A stretch of 23,811 nt of DNA. Source: a virus. Of the stretch, positions 1-22,778 are shown piece by piece. Where the stretch lies: IMG/VR virus record IMGVR_UViG_3300037189_013654, positions 1-23,811 of that record; one strand, 5' to 3'. The position numbers were made by a program, and so were the translations under genes. Numbering within the stretch: position 1 is the stretch's first letter; each line of letters starts with the position of its first letter. The notes beneath the pieces were generated by a model. The model was not told the DNA's origin and made no database searches. It saw nothing but the letters and a program-made list of their open reading frames with translations.

Positions 1-342
1 AATAAAGAAATTTGGAATGATGATCTGAAGTCAAGAATCTACACTATCGCAGAAAAGATGGTAGAACTAGAAGATAAATTTATTGACCTTGCTTTTAATA
101 TGGGAGGTATCAGTGGTCTATCTTCTGAAGATGTAAAGACTTATATTCGTTATATTGCAGATCGTCGTTTGATTTCTTTGGGACTCAAGGGTGTATTCAA
201 AGTTAAAAAGAATCCATTGCCATGGGTTGAAGAGATGATCAATGCACCAACACACACCAATTTCTTTGAGAATCGTGCTACAGATTATTCAAAGGGTGCG
301 TTGTCTGGTAATTGGGAAACTGTATGGGGTAAAGCCGCATAA
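1..342 (+). CDS. nrdB: Ribonucleotide reductase class I small (beta) subunit, C-terminal part
   Basis: The reading frame is open from base 1, so the gene begins upstream of the window; only about 113 C-terminal residues are present. The stretch YIRYIADRRL, the NPLPW segment and the block NAPTHTNFFENRATDYSKG are typical of the C-terminus of the class Ia beta subunit, including the tail region that docks on the large subunit NrdA. The enzyme makes deoxynucleotides for phage DNA replication, with NrdB holding the diiron/tyrosyl radical centre; those residues lie upstream and cannot be checked. T4-like phages commonly carry nrdA and nrdB together. It is followed by a 113-base gap before pstS, so it likely ends its own transcription unit. 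Confidence 0.93.
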   Translation, partial: NKEIWNDDLKSRIYTIAEKMVELEDKFIDLAFNMGGISGLSSEDVKTYIRYIADRRLISLGLKGVFKVKKNPLPWVEEMINAPTHTNFFENRATDYSKGALSGNWETVWGKAA

Positions 343-399: not shown

Positions 400-421
400 T
401 TGTTACAATTCCGTTGCAATT
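400..421 (+). promoter_or_regulatory. Candidate PhoB box upstream of pstS
   Basis: Two tandem 11-base units, TTGTTACAATT and CCGTTGCAATT, lie 35 bases before the pstS start. PhoB boxes are 11-base direct repeats of a CTGTCAT-like heptamer followed by four A/T bases; the units here have the same architecture (heptamer plus AATT) with pyrimidine exchanges in the heptamer. Cyanophage pstS genes are known to be under host PhoB control, so the position fits. No clear -10 is seen; tagtct at 434-439 is a weak candidate. The repeat is seen; PhoB binding is inferred. Confidence 0.5.
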
Positions 422-455: not shown

Positions 456-1481
456 ATGAAGCAGTTTTTAGCATCTATTCTATTAGCAGTATCTTCGGTC
501 GTATCAGCAGCAGAACTCACTGGCGCTGGTGCGACCTTTCCATTTCCAATCTATGCAAAGTGGGCTGAAGCATATAAAGCACAAACTGGCATTGGTCTAA
601 ATTATCAATCAATTGGTTCTGGTGGTGGCATCAAACAAATCAAAGCAAAAACAGTAGACTTTGGTGCAAGTGATATGCCACTGAAAAAAGAAGAATTGGA
701 CAAAGAAGGTCTTGTTCAATTTCCAGCAATCATTGGTGGTGTCGTGCCAGTTTTCAATCTTGATGGTGTAGCACCAGGTCAATTGAAGTTGACACCAGAA
801 GTTATTGCAAACATTCATATGGGTAAAATCACAAAATGGAATGACAAAGCAATTACTGATTTGAATCCTGGTGTGAATCTTCCAGCATTAGCAATCACTG
901 TAATTCATCGTGCAGATGGTTCGGGCACTACATTTATCTGGACAAATTTCTTGGGTAAAGCAAACGCAGAGTTTGCAAAAACTGTCGGTGAAGGCACAGC
1001 AGTCAAATGGCCTGTTGGTGTAGGTGGTAAAGGCAATGAGGGCGTTGCAGCACAAGTGCAGAGAATCAAAGGCGCATTTGGATATGTTGAGTATGCATTT
1101 GCAAAGAGAAACAAAATTGCATTTGCACAATTGAAGAATCGTGATGGTGTTTTTGTATTACCTGATGATTCTACATTCAAAGCAGCCGCAGCAGGTGCAG
1201 ATTGGAACAATGCACCAGGCATGTATTTGTTACTCACATGGCAAACAGGCAAAGATGCATGGCCAGCAACTGGTGCAAGTTTTATCCTGATGCACAAACA
1301 GCAAGCAGATGCACTAACGGGTCGTGCAATTCTTAAATTCTTTGATTGGTCATATAAGAATGGCGCACAAATGGCAACAGAATTAGAATACGTTCATATG
1401 CCAGCCGATGTAATTAAATTAGTTCAGGAAAACTGGAAGAAAGATTTCCGTGGTCCAGACAACAACCCAATTTGGAAATAA
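456..1481 (+). CDS. pstS: Phosphate ABC transporter periplasmic phosphate-binding protein PstS
   Basis: A protein of 341 residues. The start at 456 was chosen because it has AGGAG seven bases upstream and begins a clean signal peptide (MKQFLASILLAVSSVVSA); an in-frame ATG at 414 would place extra polar residues before it and overlaps the candidate Pho box. The mature start contains the PstS signature GAGATFPFPIYAKWAEAY, followed by IGSGGGIKQI and FGASDMPL, and later the GSGTTFIWTNFL phosphate-binding loop. It captures inorganic phosphate in the host periplasm and passes it to the host PstCAB importer, for which no genes are seen here. It is 9 bases from the porin gene, so the two are likely co-transcribed. 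Phage pstS is known from marine T4-like cyanophages as a host-derived metabolic gene. Confidence 0.96.
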   Translation: MKQFLASILLAVSSVVSAAELTGAGATFPFPIYAKWAEAYKAQTGIGLNYQSIGSGGGIKQIKAKTVDFGASDMPLKKEELDKEGLVQFPAIIGGVVPVFNLDGVAPGQLKLTPEVIANIHMGKITKWNDKAITDLNPGVNLPALAITVIHRADGSGTTFIWTNFLGKANAEFAKTVGEGTAVKWPVGVGGKGNEGVAAQVQRIKGAFGYVEYAFAKRNKIAFAQLKNRDGVFVLPDDSTFKAAAAGADWNNAPGMYLLLTWQTGKDAWPATGASFILMHKQQADALTGRAILKFFDWSYKNGAQMATELEYVHMPADVIKLVQENWKKDFRGPDNNPIWK

Positions 1482-1490
1482 GGATAAATC

Positions 1491-2897
1491 ATGAAATTAT
1501 TAAAAAAACTTTCTATCGTAATTGCACTGGCAACAGTAATTCCTGCACATGCTGATGAGTATAAAGATACTCTGAATATTCTAAGAGAGAAGAATATAAT
1601 CACTCAACAAGAATATGACAATAAACTCAAAGCATATGAAGAGAAAGAAGAAAACAAAAAATTTGCAGAGCAAAGAATTGATAAAGATGTTAGCGATTCA
1701 GTCAAATACAGACAAGCAAGAGCAAATGATGGTTCAGTTATGGAAAATGGAATCGGACTAAAAAGCAAAGATGGTAACAATACTATTCAGCTTACAGGGC
1801 GAGTACACATGGACTACCGTTACTACACACCAGACTATGGAACAAGTCAAACGACAGATGCATATCAAAACTTAACTGAAATTCGTCGTGCAAGATTTGG
1901 TGTACGTGGTCAGTTTCAAAAAGACTTCAAGTACGAAATAGTTGGTAACTTCGGTAACGATGTTGGCGCATCATCTACATCAACGTTGATGGATGTGGCT
2001 TGGGTAAACTATGCTGCAAATCCTGAAATGCAGTTTCAGTTTGGTCTGTTCAAAATGCCATTCAGTCTTGAACAGTTGACTAGCTCAAACAACATTGATT
2101 TTATGGAGCGCAGTTTGGTTGGTCAAGTTGAGGGTGAATTTATTCCTTCAAAAGAAACCGGATTTATGGTGCATGGTGTACCGAAAGCAGGTTTGACTTA
2201 TGCTGTTGCTGCAAGCCGTGGTCGTGGTAATAAAGATGCAGTCAATGATGGTTTTGATTACATCGGTCGTGTTACCACAAACATTGCTGAGTTGCAAGGT
2301 AGCAAAGCTTATATTGCACACCTAGGTGCTGCTTATAGTCTAGGCGATATCAAAGGTGGTGTGACTCCTGCAAGTGGTAGAACTGAGAGTAGATCACAAA
2401 GTGCTTTCTTTACAGGTCCTGCATTGAGTGGTGATACCGTTAGAACACGCCAAGGTCTTGAAGCAGCAGTTGCATACAATGCACTAAAAGTTCAAGCTGA
2501 ACACTTTAATTTCAAGTACGATCCAACAACAGGTAATAATCAAGAAATTAAAGGTTACTATGTACAAGCTGTGTACAATCTAACTGGTGAATCATTCAAC
2601 TACAAAGATGGTGCATTTAGTTCCGTCAAACCAGCAAACTCTATTGACAAAGGTGGTCGTGGTGCATGGCAAGTTGGTGTACGTATGAGTGAGTTTGATG
2701 CTGGTGATATTGCTGTTGCTACTGGTAAAACCAATCGTGCTACTGCTATGACATATGGTATCACTTGGCTTGCTACTGACAACCTTCGTTTCATGTTAAA
2801 TTATGTTGATACAAAGTTTGATGCATTAGTTGGTTCATCAGGTAGTCGTGTAAATGGTGATAAAGCCATTATGTTTAGAAGTCAATTGAATTTCTAA
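1491..2897 (+). CDS. Phosphate-selective outer-membrane porin (OprP/OprO type)
   Basis: A protein of 468 residues, close to the usual OprP/OprO length. It has a signal peptide (MKLLKKLSIVIALATVIPAHA, cut before DEY), a charged helical segment with IITQQEYDNKL at about residues 35-47, then a beta-rich barrel. Family features are the RRARFGVRGQFQKDFKYEI strand, the segment VAWVNYAANPEMQFQFGLFKMPFSLEQ and NNIDFMERS. The chain ends in a terminal phenylalanine (RSQLNF), the signal for outer-membrane barrel insertion. OprP and OprO form trimeric channels for phosphate or polyphosphate that bacteria induce under phosphate starvation. It directly follows pstS, with GGA (tAAGGATAAatc) as ribosome site. 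Ion selectivity cannot be judged from sequence, and a general porin of the same fold is possible. Confidence 0.86.
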   Translation: MKLLKKLSIVIALATVIPAHADEYKDTLNILREKNIITQQEYDNKLKAYEEKEENKKFAEQRIDKDVSDSVKYRQARANDGSVMENGIGLKSKDGNNTIQLTGRVHMDYRYYTPDYGTSQTTDAYQNLTEIRRARFGVRGQFQKDFKYEIVGNFGNDVGASSTSTLMDVAWVNYAANPEMQFQFGLFKMPFSLEQLTSSNNIDFMERSLVGQVEGEFIPSKETGFMVHGVPKAGLTYAVAASRGRGNKDAVNDGFDYIGRVTTNIAELQGSKAYIAHLGAAYSLGDIKGGVTPASGRTESRSQSAFFTGPALSGDTVRTRQGLEAAVAYNALKVQAEHFNFKYDPTTGNNQEIKGYYVQAVYNLTGESFNYKDGAFSSVKPANSIDKGGRGAWQVGVRMSEFDAGDIAVATGKTNRATAMTYGITWLATDNLRFMLNYVDTKFDALVGSSGSRVNGDKAIMFRSQLNF

Positions 2898-2955: not shown

Positions 2956-3747
2956 ATGCAAAAAACATATCGTAGTATTTTCATCTCAGATGTTCACCTT
3001 GGCACGAAAGATTGCAAGGCTGAAGCACTTAACAATTTCCTCAAACACAACACATGCGACACGTTATATCTTGTTGGTGATATCATTGATGGCTGGAAAA
3101 TAAAACAGAATAAATGGCGTTGGAAACAAAGTCACACAAATGTTGTTCGTAGAGTTTTGGGCCATGCAAAAAAAGGAACAAGAGTAGTGTATGTTTTAGG
3201 AAATCATGATGAGTTTTTAAGACCATTTCTGCAATATAATTTAAGTTTTGGTGCCATGGAAATGGTCAATCAATGTGAACATATCGGTGCCGATGGTAAA
3301 CACTATTTGGTGATTCATGGTGATTTATTTGATGGTATTACAAGACTAGCACCATGGATATCTTTTTTAGGAGACAGAGCATATGATTGCATCTTATCAG
3401 TTAATAGTAAATTTAATTGGATCTTACATAGAATTGGTGTTGGTTATTTTAGCCTTAGTCGTTTCCTTAAGCACCGAGTAAAAAAAGCCGTAGATTTTAT
3501 CTTTCAATTTGAAAAAAATCTAGCAGGTTATTGCAAGAAAAAAGGATATGATGGTGTGATATGTGGACATATACATCATGCTGAGATAAAAGAGATAGAC
3601 GGTGTAACTTATATGAATGATGGTGATTGGGTTGAATCATTAACAGCATTAGTTGAGCATCACGATGGCCGATGGGAAATAATCACATGGACACAAGAGA
3701 ACGATAATGTGGTTGATGACAACAATGATTTACTACTTAAAATTTGA
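2956..3747 (+). CDS. COG2908 calcineurin-like metallophosphoesterase (LpxH/PlcP-like)
   Basis: A protein of 263 residues with all metal-binding motifs of the family: DVH at residues 12-14, GDIID at 41-45, GNHDE at 82-86, HGD at 121-123 and GHIHH at 204-208. The C-terminal stretch NDGDWVESLTALVEHHDGRWEI matches the longer COG2908 proteins of proteobacteria. COG2908 includes LpxH (UDP-2,3-diacylglucosamine hydrolysis in lipid A synthesis) and PlcP, the phosphorus-stress phospholipase C that removes phosphate head groups so that phospholipids can be replaced by glycolipids. The context (pstS and porin upstream, glycosyltransferase downstream) favours a PlcP-like role, but sequence alone does not separate the two. 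The start has no clear ribosome site. It probably acts at the cytoplasmic membrane surface. Confidence 0.82.
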   Translation: MQKTYRSIFISDVHLGTKDCKAEALNNFLKHNTCDTLYLVGDIIDGWKIKQNKWRWKQSHTNVVRRVLGHAKKGTRVVYVLGNHDEFLRPFLQYNLSFGAMEMVNQCEHIGADGKHYLVIHGDLFDGITRLAPWISFLGDRAYDCILSVNSKFNWILHRIGVGYFSLSRFLKHRVKKAVDFIFQFEKNLAGYCKKKGYDGVICGHIHHAEIKEIDGVTYMNDGDWVESLTALVEHHDGRWEIITWTQENDNVVDDNNDLLLKI

Positions 3748-3767: not shown

Positions 3768-4487
3768 ATGCCAAAAAATAAACTGAGTGAAAAAGTTACG
3801 ATTGTAATACCATGTAAAAACGAAGAAAGTTACATTCATAACTTATTAAGAGCTTTACGATTACAAAAAATCGGAGATACAAAAATTATTATTGCAGATA
3901 GTTCTACTGATAATACAAGGCAAGTTATAAGAGATAATAGTGCTTTCTTAAATATTGAAATCATTGACGGTGGACCAGTGGCAGTAGCTAGAAATAATGC
4001 CGCCAAGTTGGTTACCACACCTTATATTCTATTCATTGATTCAGATGTTTGTTTTTGTGATAGTTATACTATACGTAATGTCGTTGAAGAAATAGAATTT
4101 TATAATTTGGATTTAATCGGAGCAAAAATATATTGTTATGATGATGATTGGCGAGCAAGTATTGGATTTGCCATTTTCAATTTTCTGAATAATATTTTAA
4201 AATATTTTAGTCCATTCGCTGTCGGTGCATTTATGCTTACCCGAAGAGATAAGTTTGAAGAGTATGGTGGTTTTCCAGAAAAATACACAACTTCTGAAGA
4301 TTTCTTTCTTTCAAGAATGTACGATCCAAAAAAATTTAAAATTACTGAACATTATTTTGGACAAGATTCCCGTAGATTCAAAAAGATGGGATATTTCGGC
4401 ATGGCCACCTATCTCATTAAAAATTTTATAAATCGTAATAACAAAAAATACTGGGATAAGTTAGACGGGACCAAATACTGGGAATAG
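3768..4487 (+). CDS. Family 2 (GT-A fold) glycosyltransferase
   Basis: A protein of 239 residues. The N-terminal strand VTIVIPCKNEESYI (10-23), the IIIADSSTDNT segment (40-50) and the metal/nucleotide-sugar DSD motif at 91-93 define a GT-A fold, GT2-type enzyme. An acidic SED at about 181-183 after GGFPEKY could supply the catalytic base. Hydrophobic stretches at about 130-155 suggest membrane contact, as in lipid glycosyltransferases, but there are no clear full transmembrane helices. It lies 20 bases after the metallophosphoesterase with AAGGTT upstream. In phosphorus-starved proteobacteria plcP is paired with a lipid glycosyltransferase gene (agt), so glycosylation of diacylglycerol is a reasonable hypothesis; modification of LPS is the main alternative. 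Confidence 0.82.
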   Translation: MPKNKLSEKVTIVIPCKNEESYIHNLLRALRLQKIGDTKIIIADSSTDNTRQVIRDNSAFLNIEIIDGGPVAVARNNAAKLVTTPYILFIDSDVCFCDSYTIRNVVEEIEFYNLDLIGAKIYCYDDDWRASIGFAIFNFLNNILKYFSPFAVGAFMLTRRDKFEEYGGFPEKYTTSEDFFLSRMYDPKKFKITEHYFGQDSRRFKKMGYFGMATYLIKNFINRNNKKYWDKLDGTKYWE

Positions 4488-6676: not shown

Positions 6677-7285
6677 ATGGATAAGTTACTTATGATCAAG
6701 TCTTTAACAGACACAAAAAACCTTTTAGAGACTCTCATTGAAAATAGAACACAGATGTTTGCAACGACTGAGATACCGAAGCCATTAGATCAATTAGTCG
6801 GAGCAGCAAACGCATGTGTTGAAGCTCTGCAAAATGGTAACAAAATATTCTTTATGGGTAACGGTGGTTCAGCAGCAGAAGCACAGCACCTAGCAGGTGA
6901 ATTGGTTTCATATTTCATGAGACAAAGTAAACCATATGCAGCAATTGCATTGAATACTGATACATCAGTGATAACAGCAATTGCAAATGATTTGGGCTAT
7001 GAGCATGTATTCTCACGCCAACTTCAAGCATTATCCAAACCTGGTGATGTAGCAGTTTATTTGTCAACATCAGGTCTATCAAAAAATATTTTGAAAGCAA
7101 TGGAATATGGTAAAGAAAATGGCGTAGTAAACATTGGATTTACTGGTATGAAAACAAGATACATGCATCAATATTCCGATTACTACATTGCAATTCCTTC
7201 TACATCAACGCCGCATATTCAAGAAATGCATTTGATTTTGGGACATCTTCTATGTGAACGCATTGAAGAGAGATTGGATGCCTAA
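6677..7285 (+). CDS. gmhA: Phosphoheptose isomerase (sedoheptulose-7-phosphate isomerase)
   Basis: A protein of 202 residues, the usual GmhA length, with one SIS domain. Motifs are GNGGSAAEAQHLAGEL at 61-76, LNTDTSVITAIANDLGYEHV at 92-111, STSGLSKN at 130-137 and TPHIQEMHLILGH at 178-190. H71, E75, Q182 and H190 match the zinc/catalytic positions of GmhA by spacing. The enzyme makes D-glycero-D-manno-heptose 7-phosphate, the first step to ADP-heptose for LPS core. No other heptose-pathway genes are visible here, so it would feed the host pathway. The first ATG has no strong ribosome site; a second ATG five codons on is possible. Confidence 0.93.
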   Translation: MDKLLMIKSLTDTKNLLETLIENRTQMFATTEIPKPLDQLVGAANACVEALQNGNKIFFMGNGGSAAEAQHLAGELVSYFMRQSKPYAAIALNTDTSVITAIANDLGYEHVFSRQLQALSKPGDVAVYLSTSGLSKNILKAMEYGKENGVVNIGFTGMKTRYMHQYSDYYIAIPSTSTPHIQEMHLILGHLLCERIEERLDA

Positions 7286-8074: not shown

Positions 8075-8167
8075 ATGGACTTAATATACAAACAAATTTT
8101 AGGTTACGTTTTGCTTTTGTTTCTCGTACTTCTTTTACCAACCTTTTTTACACTGTTCACTCAATGA
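8075..8167 (+). CDS. Single-helix membrane peptide, 30 residues
   Basis: A strong ribosome site (AAGGAG, seven bases from ATG) precedes a 30-residue frame that is almost all hydrophobic (YVLLLFLVLLLPTFFTLF). It ends in an ATGA overlap with the D,D-peptidase gene, so translation is coupled. A one-helix inner-membrane peptide, perhaps tuning or accompanying the membrane-anchored peptidase. Confidence 0.65.
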   Translation: MDLIYKQILGYVLLLFLVLLLPTFFTLFTQ

Positions 8168-9042
8168 AAGACAGCCGACCATATAAACATTTTACTATTG
8201 TTGAGTGGATTGTTGTATTTGGTATTCTTTTCTTTATGGTGTTTGTATCTGCGGAAGCAAAGAGTACACACAAAAGACATGCAGTATATAATATTCCACA
8301 AAAAAACTTATCAGTGATGATTACAGATATCACTGAGAGTAGGATTTTGTGTGCAACGAATGCCGAAGAGATTCGTGCATTAGCCAGTATTACTAAGTTG
8401 ATGACTGCAATGATTGCATTGGATTATGATGATAACATGAATCACAAGATAGTGTTGAGCAGAAAATCTGGTTCACATTTGCCATCACGTGAATATACAC
8501 GTGGAGAGTTGTTTCATGCGCTATTGGTAAAAAGCGATAATGGTGCAGCAGAATCGTTTGCACAAAACTATCCGGGTGGTCGTGAAGCATTTTTACAAGA
8601 GATGAATATACGTGCTAAAACATTAGGAATGACGCACACACATTTTGATGATCCATCTGGATTGAGTAGTAAGAATGTAAGTACGGCACGTGATATTACA
8701 CTGATGGTCATGGCAGCTGGATACTATGAACATATTAGGGAAATATCAACAAAGAAGTCTGCATATATCACAACGCAAAGTAAACGAAAACAAAGAACTG
8801 TGGTATTGAATAATACTAACAGATTAATTCTATCACAAGTGGATGGTGTACAAGTAAGTAAAACTGGCTATACAAATCCTGCTGGCTTTTGTGTAGCAAT
8901 TATGGTTGAGAAAATAATCAATAACGAAAAACATTATCAAGTGTATGTTGTTATGGGTGCAAGAAACTCTAAACAAAGAGCAGACGAGGTGAAGCGATTG
9001 GTTTATACACAATACGGAGGACCAAATCATGGTGCAGGATGA
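8164..9042 (+). CDS. D-alanyl-D-alanine carboxypeptidase/endopeptidase (peptidase S11, low-MW PBP)
   Basis: A protein of 292 residues with an N-terminal membrane segment or uncleaved signal (about residues 11-30, IVEWIVVFGILFFMVFVSA). All three penicillin-binding active-site motifs are present: SITK at 75-78 (SxxK, nucleophile S75), SDN at 124-126 and KTG at 233-235. The length and the lack of a long C-terminal domain suit the PbpG/PBP7-like group. It would trim or cleave host peptidoglycan cross-links in the periplasm. Possible roles are preparing the wall for lysis, altering it to block superinfection, or balancing wall growth during a long infection. The gene is coupled to the membrane peptide before it and overlaps the next gene by 14 bases. 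Confidence 0.9.
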   Translation: MKDSRPYKHFTIVEWIVVFGILFFMVFVSAEAKSTHKRHAVYNIPQKNLSVMITDITESRILCATNAEEIRALASITKLMTAMIALDYDDNMNHKIVLSRKSGSHLPSREYTRGELFHALLVKSDNGAAESFAQNYPGGREAFLQEMNIRAKTLGMTHTHFDDPSGLSSKNVSTARDITLMVMAAGYYEHIREISTKKSAYITTQSKRKQRTVVLNNTNRLILSQVDGVQVSKTGYTNPAGFCVAIMVEKIINNEKHYQVYVVMGARNSKQRADEVKRLVYTQYGGPNHGAG

Positions 9043-21873: not shown

Positions 21874-22410
21874 ATGCCTAATTGGTGCGATAATTCACTG
21901 ACTCTAACTCATTCAGATAAAACAAAACTGGATGAGTTAGCCGTAGAACTTGATAAGGGTGATGATTCAGAGATATTTAAATATCTGCGCCCATATGAGG
22001 GTGAATGGAATTATGGATGGTGTTGTGAGAATTGGGGCACCAAATGGGAAGCACGTGTCTACGGCTGGGAACGTATTGATGAAAATACATTATTCATTAG
22101 TTTTGAAACCGCATGGGGACCACCCATTATGTTGTATGAGTATCTTGAGCAACAAGAATGGGAAGTAGAGGGTCTATATAATGAACCCGGCATGGCTTTT
22201 GCTGGCATGTACGAACAAGGCTCAGATAATTATTTTGAGTATGGCGAGTTGTCTGCTGATGAAATTGAAGAAGAATTGCCTGTAGTATTAGAAGAAACAT
22301 TTGGCATGGCACAATATAAACGTGACTGGGAAGATGAAGAAGAATGGGACGGTTCATCTGATGATTCAGACACCACAGAATGGCCAGAACCTAAAGAAGA
22401 AAATAAATGA
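21874..22410 (+). CDS. Api92-like protein with ferredoxin-like (YubB-type) domain
   Basis: A protein of 178 residues with AAGGAGAAG upstream. It begins MPNWCDNSLTLTHSD, the hallmark of the Api92/YubB-like family of phage and plasmid proteins, followed by WGTKWEARV and FETAWGPP blocks. The last 35 residues are very acidic (DEEEWDGSSDDSD). These proteins are common in mobile elements; function is unknown. It is coupled by ATGA to the phosphatase-like gene. Confidence 0.82.
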   Translation: MPNWCDNSLTLTHSDKTKLDELAVELDKGDDSEIFKYLRPYEGEWNYGWCCENWGTKWEARVYGWERIDENTLFISFETAWGPPIMLYEYLEQQEWEVEGLYNEPGMAFAGMYEQGSDNYFEYGELSADEIEEELPVVLEETFGMAQYKRDWEDEEEWDGSSDDSDTTEWPEPKEENK

Positions 22411-22778
22411 GTAATTACGGAATCCACTCCAATCGCTTTCAGGGTGATTATAAACGTGTGCTGACAGTGTGTTCGGCTAACATGTTGCGGTCGCCCACGA
22501 TTGCTCATATCTTATCTGCTGACCCATATAACTTCAATACACGGTCAGCTGGTACAGAAGGATATGCATTGATTCCTGTTACCGAAGATTTGCTGATGTG
22601 GTGTGATGAAGTTGTATGTGCTGATACGGAACATGCAATGTGGGTACGCAATAAAATGATGGAATGGATGTTAGATAAGCCAATCATTGATTTGCAAATT
22701 CCCGATCATTATGAGTATCGTAACCCTGAATTAATTGAAATGATCAAGGAGCGTTATGGATCACGAACTGCTGACTGA
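22407..22778 (+). CDS. Low-molecular-weight protein-tyrosine-phosphatase-like protein
   Basis: A protein of 123 residues. RVLTVCSANMLRSPTIAHIL (17-36) has the C-x5-R phosphatase loop (C22, R28) followed by serine, FNTRSAGT matches the family's second block, and IPDHYEY (98-104) holds an aspartate that could be the general acid. It could dephosphorylate host proteins or small molecules; many phage versions are uncharacterised. Loop sequence SANML differs from the usual GNICR, so activity is not assured. It overlaps the next gene by 23 bases. Confidence 0.78.
   Translation: MSNYGIHSNRFQGDYKRVLTVCSANMLRSPTIAHILSADPYNFNTRSAGTEGYALIPVTEDLLMWCDEVVCADTEHAMWVRNKMMEWMLDKPIIDLQIPDHYEYRNPELIEMIKERYGSRTAD

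Follow-up and report, generated by a model that had tools for sequence, protein, structure and literature searches.

We identified a gene for an outer-membrane porin lying directly behind pstS in the window (the whole 23.8-kb stretch of viral DNA analysed here; Table 1). The observation is real, and sequence, profile and fold all place the porin in the OprP/OprO family. We propose that it is probably an outer-membrane anion or phosphate channel, and that its gene serves as an auxiliary metabolic gene for a T4-like phage whose hosts are Burkholderiales-like aquatic bacteria. The protein family is ordinary but its carrier and partnership are unusual; the genomic case is strong, and from it we infer the phosphate role.

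Table 1. Features of the window around the porin gene (positions are those of the whole window).
Feature	Position	Strand	Basis
nrdB 3′ part, ribonucleotide reductase small subunit, gene before the module	1..342	+	Pfam 2.8e-16; phrog_86
Degenerate Pho-box-like repeat TTGTTAC-AATT-CCGTTGC upstream of pstS	400..417	+	Weak, score 8
pstS, periplasmic phosphate-binding protein with signal peptide	456..1481	+	NCBIfam equivalogs; phrog_5385
OprP/OprO-family porin, 468 aa, 16-strand outer-membrane barrel	1491..2897	+	Pfam; phmmer; AlphaFold model
Porin signal peptide, residues 1-21, Sec-type, MKLLKKLSIVIALATVIPAHA/DEYK	1491..1553	+	Inspection; pLDDT <50 there
N-terminal helical region of mature porin, residues 22-84 (helices 23-33, 39-78)	1554..1742	+	Model secondary structure
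Loop L3, residues 189-220, MPFSLEQLTSSNNIDFMERS..., expected inward constriction loop	2055..2150	+	Alignment; variability
Calcineurin-like metallophosphoesterase, PlcP-like	2956..3747	+	Pfam; catalytic motifs
Family-2 glycosyltransferase	3768..4487	+	Pfam Glycos_transf_2 1.9e-21

The porin ORF is complete, begins with ATG and ends in Phe, a terminal residue that is typical of barrels inserted by the BAM machinery. It matches the Pfam family Porin_O_P (PF07396) with an E-value of 7.6e-49 and 167.3 bits against a curated cut-off of 20.9. Moreover, OprO and OprP are its sole significant matches in the PDB (phmmer, 3e-18), and a profile of the porin reaches 1e-53 to 8e-56 against them. No family in PHROGs or NCBIfam matched the porin. 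Comparison with its relatives gave dN/dS values of 0.09-0.12 (NG86, rough at these dS values), indicating that the reading frame is under purifying selection.

An AlphaFold model based on phage sequences alone had a low pLDDT of 54.5; adding bacterial relatives gave the model used here, with a pLDDT of 83.3, 16 strands and most barrel residues above 90. By VIA-align this model matches OprO/OprP with Z 41 over 361-363 residues at 2.4-2.5 Å, and Foldseek agrees on the match. The next family, PorB, reaches Z 25.7, and general porins stay at or below 26 among the structures listed, which exclude PhoE. The N-terminal helical region lies outside the part that aligns with OprP, as structural matches begin at around residue 82. 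Pore residues were mapped onto OprP numbering by sequence alignment rather than from coordinates, using those OprP residues which we take to be pore-lining. R34, R59, R60, R133, D94, S124, S125 and R226 are conserved, the main viral clade also retains K74 and K323, and Arg stands in place of K378. K121, K109 and K126 have become Gln, Gln and Asn, respectively, and the loop arginines R218, R220 and R242 find no counterpart. Y62 and Y114 correspond to Arg135 and Lys188 in every viral sequence, these being the two positions altered in the OprO F62Y/D114Y mutant structure. Loop L3 is among the least variable parts of the porin. The alignment thus points to a pore that is likely basic, but not identical to that of OprP, and given the Gln at K121 and the unmatched R218, R220 and R242 its selectivity may be broader than that of OprP.

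These results bear on the sequence-only reading of this DNA, which had described a complete, signal-bearing 468-residue outer-membrane barrel directly after pstS. The ORF, the signal, the 16 strands and a gap of only 9 nt agree with that description. Both the profile search against the OprO/OprP family and the comparison with non-phosphate porins came out on the side of OprO/OprP. That reading had also expected a basic pore ladder: most of the OprP arginine constriction is indeed kept, but not K121 or the R218/R220/R242 group. Its name for the protein, a phosphate-selective porin, holds as regards family and phosphate-regulon context, but goes further than a basic pore that is only partly OprP-like.

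The gene upstream of the porin is a PstS equivalog by two NCBIfam models, scoring 419.9 bits against a cut-off of 339 and 380 against 205. Its coordinates are counted from an ATG, the listed ORF beginning earlier at a TTG. The 9-nt gap separates the pstS stop from the porin ATG, and an AAGGA motif overlaps that stop. We examined 80 contigs carrying pstS of the window type. The porin is directly downstream in 74; in two more the contig end falls inside the porin, one contig ends before a porin could appear, and three lack it (L401, L420 and L431). Therefore 76 of 79 readable loci have the porin directly behind pstS, these loci being related by descent and not independent. L420 and L431 have the next flanking gene immediately after pstS, as would be expected for a porin lost or not yet gained. 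A different clade of phage pstS has the porin on only 2 of 80 contigs (L293, the same contig as L276, and L294). Its absence from the other 78, together with the three window-type loci, indicates that the porin is dispensable.

The L293 and L294 porins are 33-38% identical to that of the window and also lie directly behind their different pstS, with a Pho box. In the tree they nest among other bacteria (L145-L148; support 100/97), whereas the main viral porin clade, with 41 representatives and 100/100 support, is sister to a Burkholderiales group (L082-L087). The placement of these two lineages argues for two separate viral gains, each of them behind a pstS. An apparent exchange of the porin allele between conserved flanks is seen inside the main clade, where one relative (L027, 8001-9407) differs from the window by a dS of 1.12 in the porin but only 0.10 in pstS.

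The window carries nrdB, a DexA-like exonuclease, a SegE-like protein and three tRNAs, and no capsid or other structural gene was found on its 23.8 kb. pstS is preceded by nrdB in many related contigs. One of these, a 172-kb contig bearing gp23, the T4 major capsid protein (L080/G009), has an nrdB 95% identical to that of the window and shares the order nrdB-pstS-porin-SNase-SegE. The phage origin of the window follows from this synteny and from its own nrdB, DexA-like, SegE-like and tRNA genes. Relatives of the porin were found on at least 102 IMG/VR contigs in a first scan and at least 133 in a second, broader one, and none was found in the isolated-phage collection. Hence the earlier suggestion that phage porins are rare holds for isolated phages but not for environmental viral contigs. 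Of 14 long porin contigs searched, 8 carry gp23, and these are 95-223 kb long. By gp23 score they form two classes, with three contigs at 472-501 bits and the other five at about 330-332 bits, pointing to two T4-like lineages among the porin-bearing contigs. Elsewhere in the window are further envelope-related genes, for a SIS-domain protein (possibly a heptose isomerase; 6677-7285) and a D-alanyl-D-alanine carboxypeptidase (8164-9042). An ORF at 22407-22778 resembles a low-molecular-weight phosphatase from its VCSANMLRSP start.

Upstream regions were scored for Pho boxes with a 7-4-7 model built from the known consensus (quoted in PMC8528852). Among pstS-porin regions with no nrdB seen next to them, made distinct at 85% identity, a strict Pho box precedes pstS in 22 of 33, compared with 0.67% of random 150-nt windows. 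In all 22, and in one weaker case, a TAAATA starts exactly 11 nt past the box. In scans over somewhat longer regions, made distinct at 80%, a Pho box was found in 38 of 71 phosphoesterase upstream regions (31 of them also having TAAATA at 11 nt) and in 40 of 45 upstream regions of porin-less phage pstS (30 of them with TAAATA at 11 nt). The composite of Pho box and TAAATA 11 nt on (21 nt at some loci) occurs in distinct phage lineages (for example L008, L062, L293 and L262). TATAAATA is also present in the gp23 loci of three relatives, so the element resembles the core of a T4-type late promoter. A canonical Pho box is absent from the window and from all 14 distinct nrdB-linked upstream regions (scores 7.5-9). 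The repeat in the window is, taken alone, without significance; nrdB-linked relatives have a better version, TTGTGAC-GGTT-CCGTTAC, and the canonical boxes are in the other lineage. On the bacterial side, a scan of the porin-ppx intergenic region in Polynucleobacter and most other islands gave no strict-score Pho box; two other bacterial loci (L085 and L088) have one. PMC10976474 places a cyanophage pstS under the host PhoBR system, and regards Pho-box predictions in phages as unreliable without binding data and in need of experimental proof.

Downstream of the porin, the phosphoesterase has all of its expected motifs (DxH, GDxxD, GNHDE, HGD and GHIHH) and is ~52% identical to the enzyme of bacterial phoX-olsB-MGDG synthase islands. 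An assignment as LpxH (UDP-2,3-diacylglucosamine diphosphatase) was rejected, with scores of 44.2 and 35.1 bits below equivalog cut-offs of 134 and 190. Relatives of this phosphoesterase are very common, being found on at least 595 viral stretches, often with a Pho box of their own. Cyanophage S-SRM01 also has one. In the isolated pelagiphage Mosig (L452, MT647606.1 93031-94866), a phosphate ABC transporter gene is divergent from a PlcP-like gene annotated as a UDP-2,3-diacylglucosamine hydrolase. In 43 of the 79 viral loci examined, the glycosyltransferase comes directly after the phosphoesterase. Both genes adjoin the pstS-porin pair in the window, as they do in 17 of 80 related loci. In bacteria, PlcP frees diacylglycerol from phospholipids under phosphate starvation and a glycosyltransferase is often next to it (PMC4796936; PMC8528852). 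A PlcP-like step in the phage is plausible on these motifs and neighbours, with the family-2 glycosyltransferase perhaps acting on the product and phospholipid as the presumed substrate.

The nearest cellular porins are from Burkholderiales, at 48-56% identity, and they are scarce, being present in 7 of 393 Burkholderiales genomes in a family sample and 2 of 300 in an order sample. These nearest bacterial porins lie within phosphate-starvation islands together with ppx, phoX, olsB, a PlcP-like phosphoesterase and an MGDG-synthase-like gene. In a Polynucleobacter MAG (L087), for example, porin and ppx are divergent, and the genes that come next are phoX (alkaline phosphatase), olsB (ornithine lipid), a metallophosphoesterase and an MGDG-synthase-like glycosyltransferase. 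L449 again has the ppx-side genes together with phoX and the phosphoesterase, and so, by gene order, does L450. G016 brings together the porin, ppx, phoX, phosphoesterase, MGDG synthase, ppk and pstS inside ~13 kb, and one MAG has pstS ~11 kb from the porin with phosphate-island genes between. The window PstS shares 75-77% identity with that of these bacteria, suggesting a Burkholderiales host.

We hypothesise that, when the phage infects a phosphate-limited cell, its PstS and porin would be co-produced from one transcription unit. Phosphate, and perhaps pyrophosphate or small phosphate esters, would cross the outer membrane through the arginine-lined constriction of the barrel. PstS would then catch phosphate in the periplasm and pass it to the host PstCAB pump, supplying phosphate for phage DNA, to the presumed benefit of the phage. 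The PlcP-like phosphoesterase and the glycosyltransferase may in addition free phosphate from host phospholipids, with glycolipids as replacement. More tentatively, and with rather less confidence than in the channel itself, these genes could form a mobile, Pho-regulated envelope module of T4-like phages that infect aquatic bacteria. Such a module, comprising porin, PstS, PlcP-type phospholipase and glycosyltransferase, might import phosphate, strip it from lipids and rebuild the membrane with glycolipids, under a composite promoter of a host PhoB box and a phage-type TAAATA.

The porin could instead be a general or organic-anion channel within Porin_O_P, kept because it widens outer-membrane permeability to nutrients, nucleotides or phosphate esters. 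The substitution of K121 by Gln and the missing counterparts of R218, R220 and R242 would fit such a channel, as would the fact that many Burkholderiales genomes carry several Porin_O_P paralogues, since it is unlikely that every one of these is a phosphate channel. We nevertheless consider this unlikely, since it does not account for the near-constant pairing with pstS, the two independent viral gains behind pstS, the Pho boxes at many loci or the bacterial relatives in phoX/ppx islands. That the gene is a functionless recent passenger from a host, or a misbinned host fragment, is highly improbable. At 23.8 kb and with no structural genes, the window might look like such a misbinned piece, but the same gene is found on gp23-bearing contigs of 95-223 kb, its viral clade has 100/100 support and its dN/dS is ~0.1. 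Moreover, we saw neither a host chromosome with the exact neighbourhood of the window nor broken porins on most phage contigs.

The sequence-only reading had further raised the idea that the porin replaces the phage's own receptor, excluding superinfection. A porin that alters the cell surface so as to exclude other phages or hide a receptor has a parallel in lambdoid phages, which bring general porins that replace those of the host. The same phage also has candidate envelope-altering genes in its glycosyltransferase, SIS-domain protein and D,D-carboxypeptidase. Receptor escape would be expected to leave hypervariable loops, but the entropy of the extracellular loops (0.65) is only mildly above that of the strands (0.51) and below that of the periplasmic turns (0.73). 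Defence-system models gave no match to the porin, and exclusion leaves the pstS linkage and the Pho boxes unexplained. We therefore found no support beyond analogy for superinfection exclusion and regard it as very unlikely. An anion or phosphate channel acting alongside PstS remains our preferred reading.

Known phage phosphate genes (PstS, PhoA, PhoH and others) act in the periplasm or cytoplasm. If the phosphate role is true, a porin tied to pstS would mean that phages relieve the outer-membrane step of phosphate uptake too, and it raises the question of whether this step limits phage growth at low phosphate. The PlcP-like phosphoesterase on at least 595 viral contigs suggests that host membranes are maybe also a source of phosphate for phage DNA. 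We found no description of a pstS-linked phage porin of OprP type in the open-access literature. However, 'phoE' is listed without detail among viral phosphorus genes (PMC9958192), and an earlier annotation of a phosphate-linked phage porin is therefore possible.

Taken together, the module resembles several known systems and departs from each. With OprP and OprO of Pseudomonas aeruginosa (2o4v, 4rjw) the porin has in common the 16-strand barrel (Z 41 over ~361 residues), but it is only 24-26% identical to them, has Gln, Arg and Lys at K121, Y62 and Y114, and has a shorter loop lacking R218/R220/R242 and extra N-terminal helices. It is moreover carried by a phage, behind pstS. The best fold match in BFVD is the 'Phosphate-selective porin O and P' of Siphoviridae sp. 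ctBLh2 (A0A8S5S2G8), which likewise has a Porin_O_P annotation in a phage assembly, but at 612 aa is only 17% identical to the porin of the window. Cyanophage pstS is also a phage-encoded PstS on a T4-like phage with a phosphate-regulon-type promoter, as in relatives of the window. In contrast, the window PstS is of Burkholderiales type (75-77% identical to bacteria, <60% to phage-collection records) and is followed by an outer-membrane porin. Lastly, bacterial PlcP-Agt lipid remodelling (PMC4796936, PMC8528852) shows the same order of metallophosphoesterase then glycosyltransferase, with Pho boxes in front, as in the phages, and similar islands also house bacterial relatives of the phage genes. 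The phage glycosyltransferase differs in being of family 2 and not MGDG-synthase-like, and lipid remodelling is a putative role of the phage pair.
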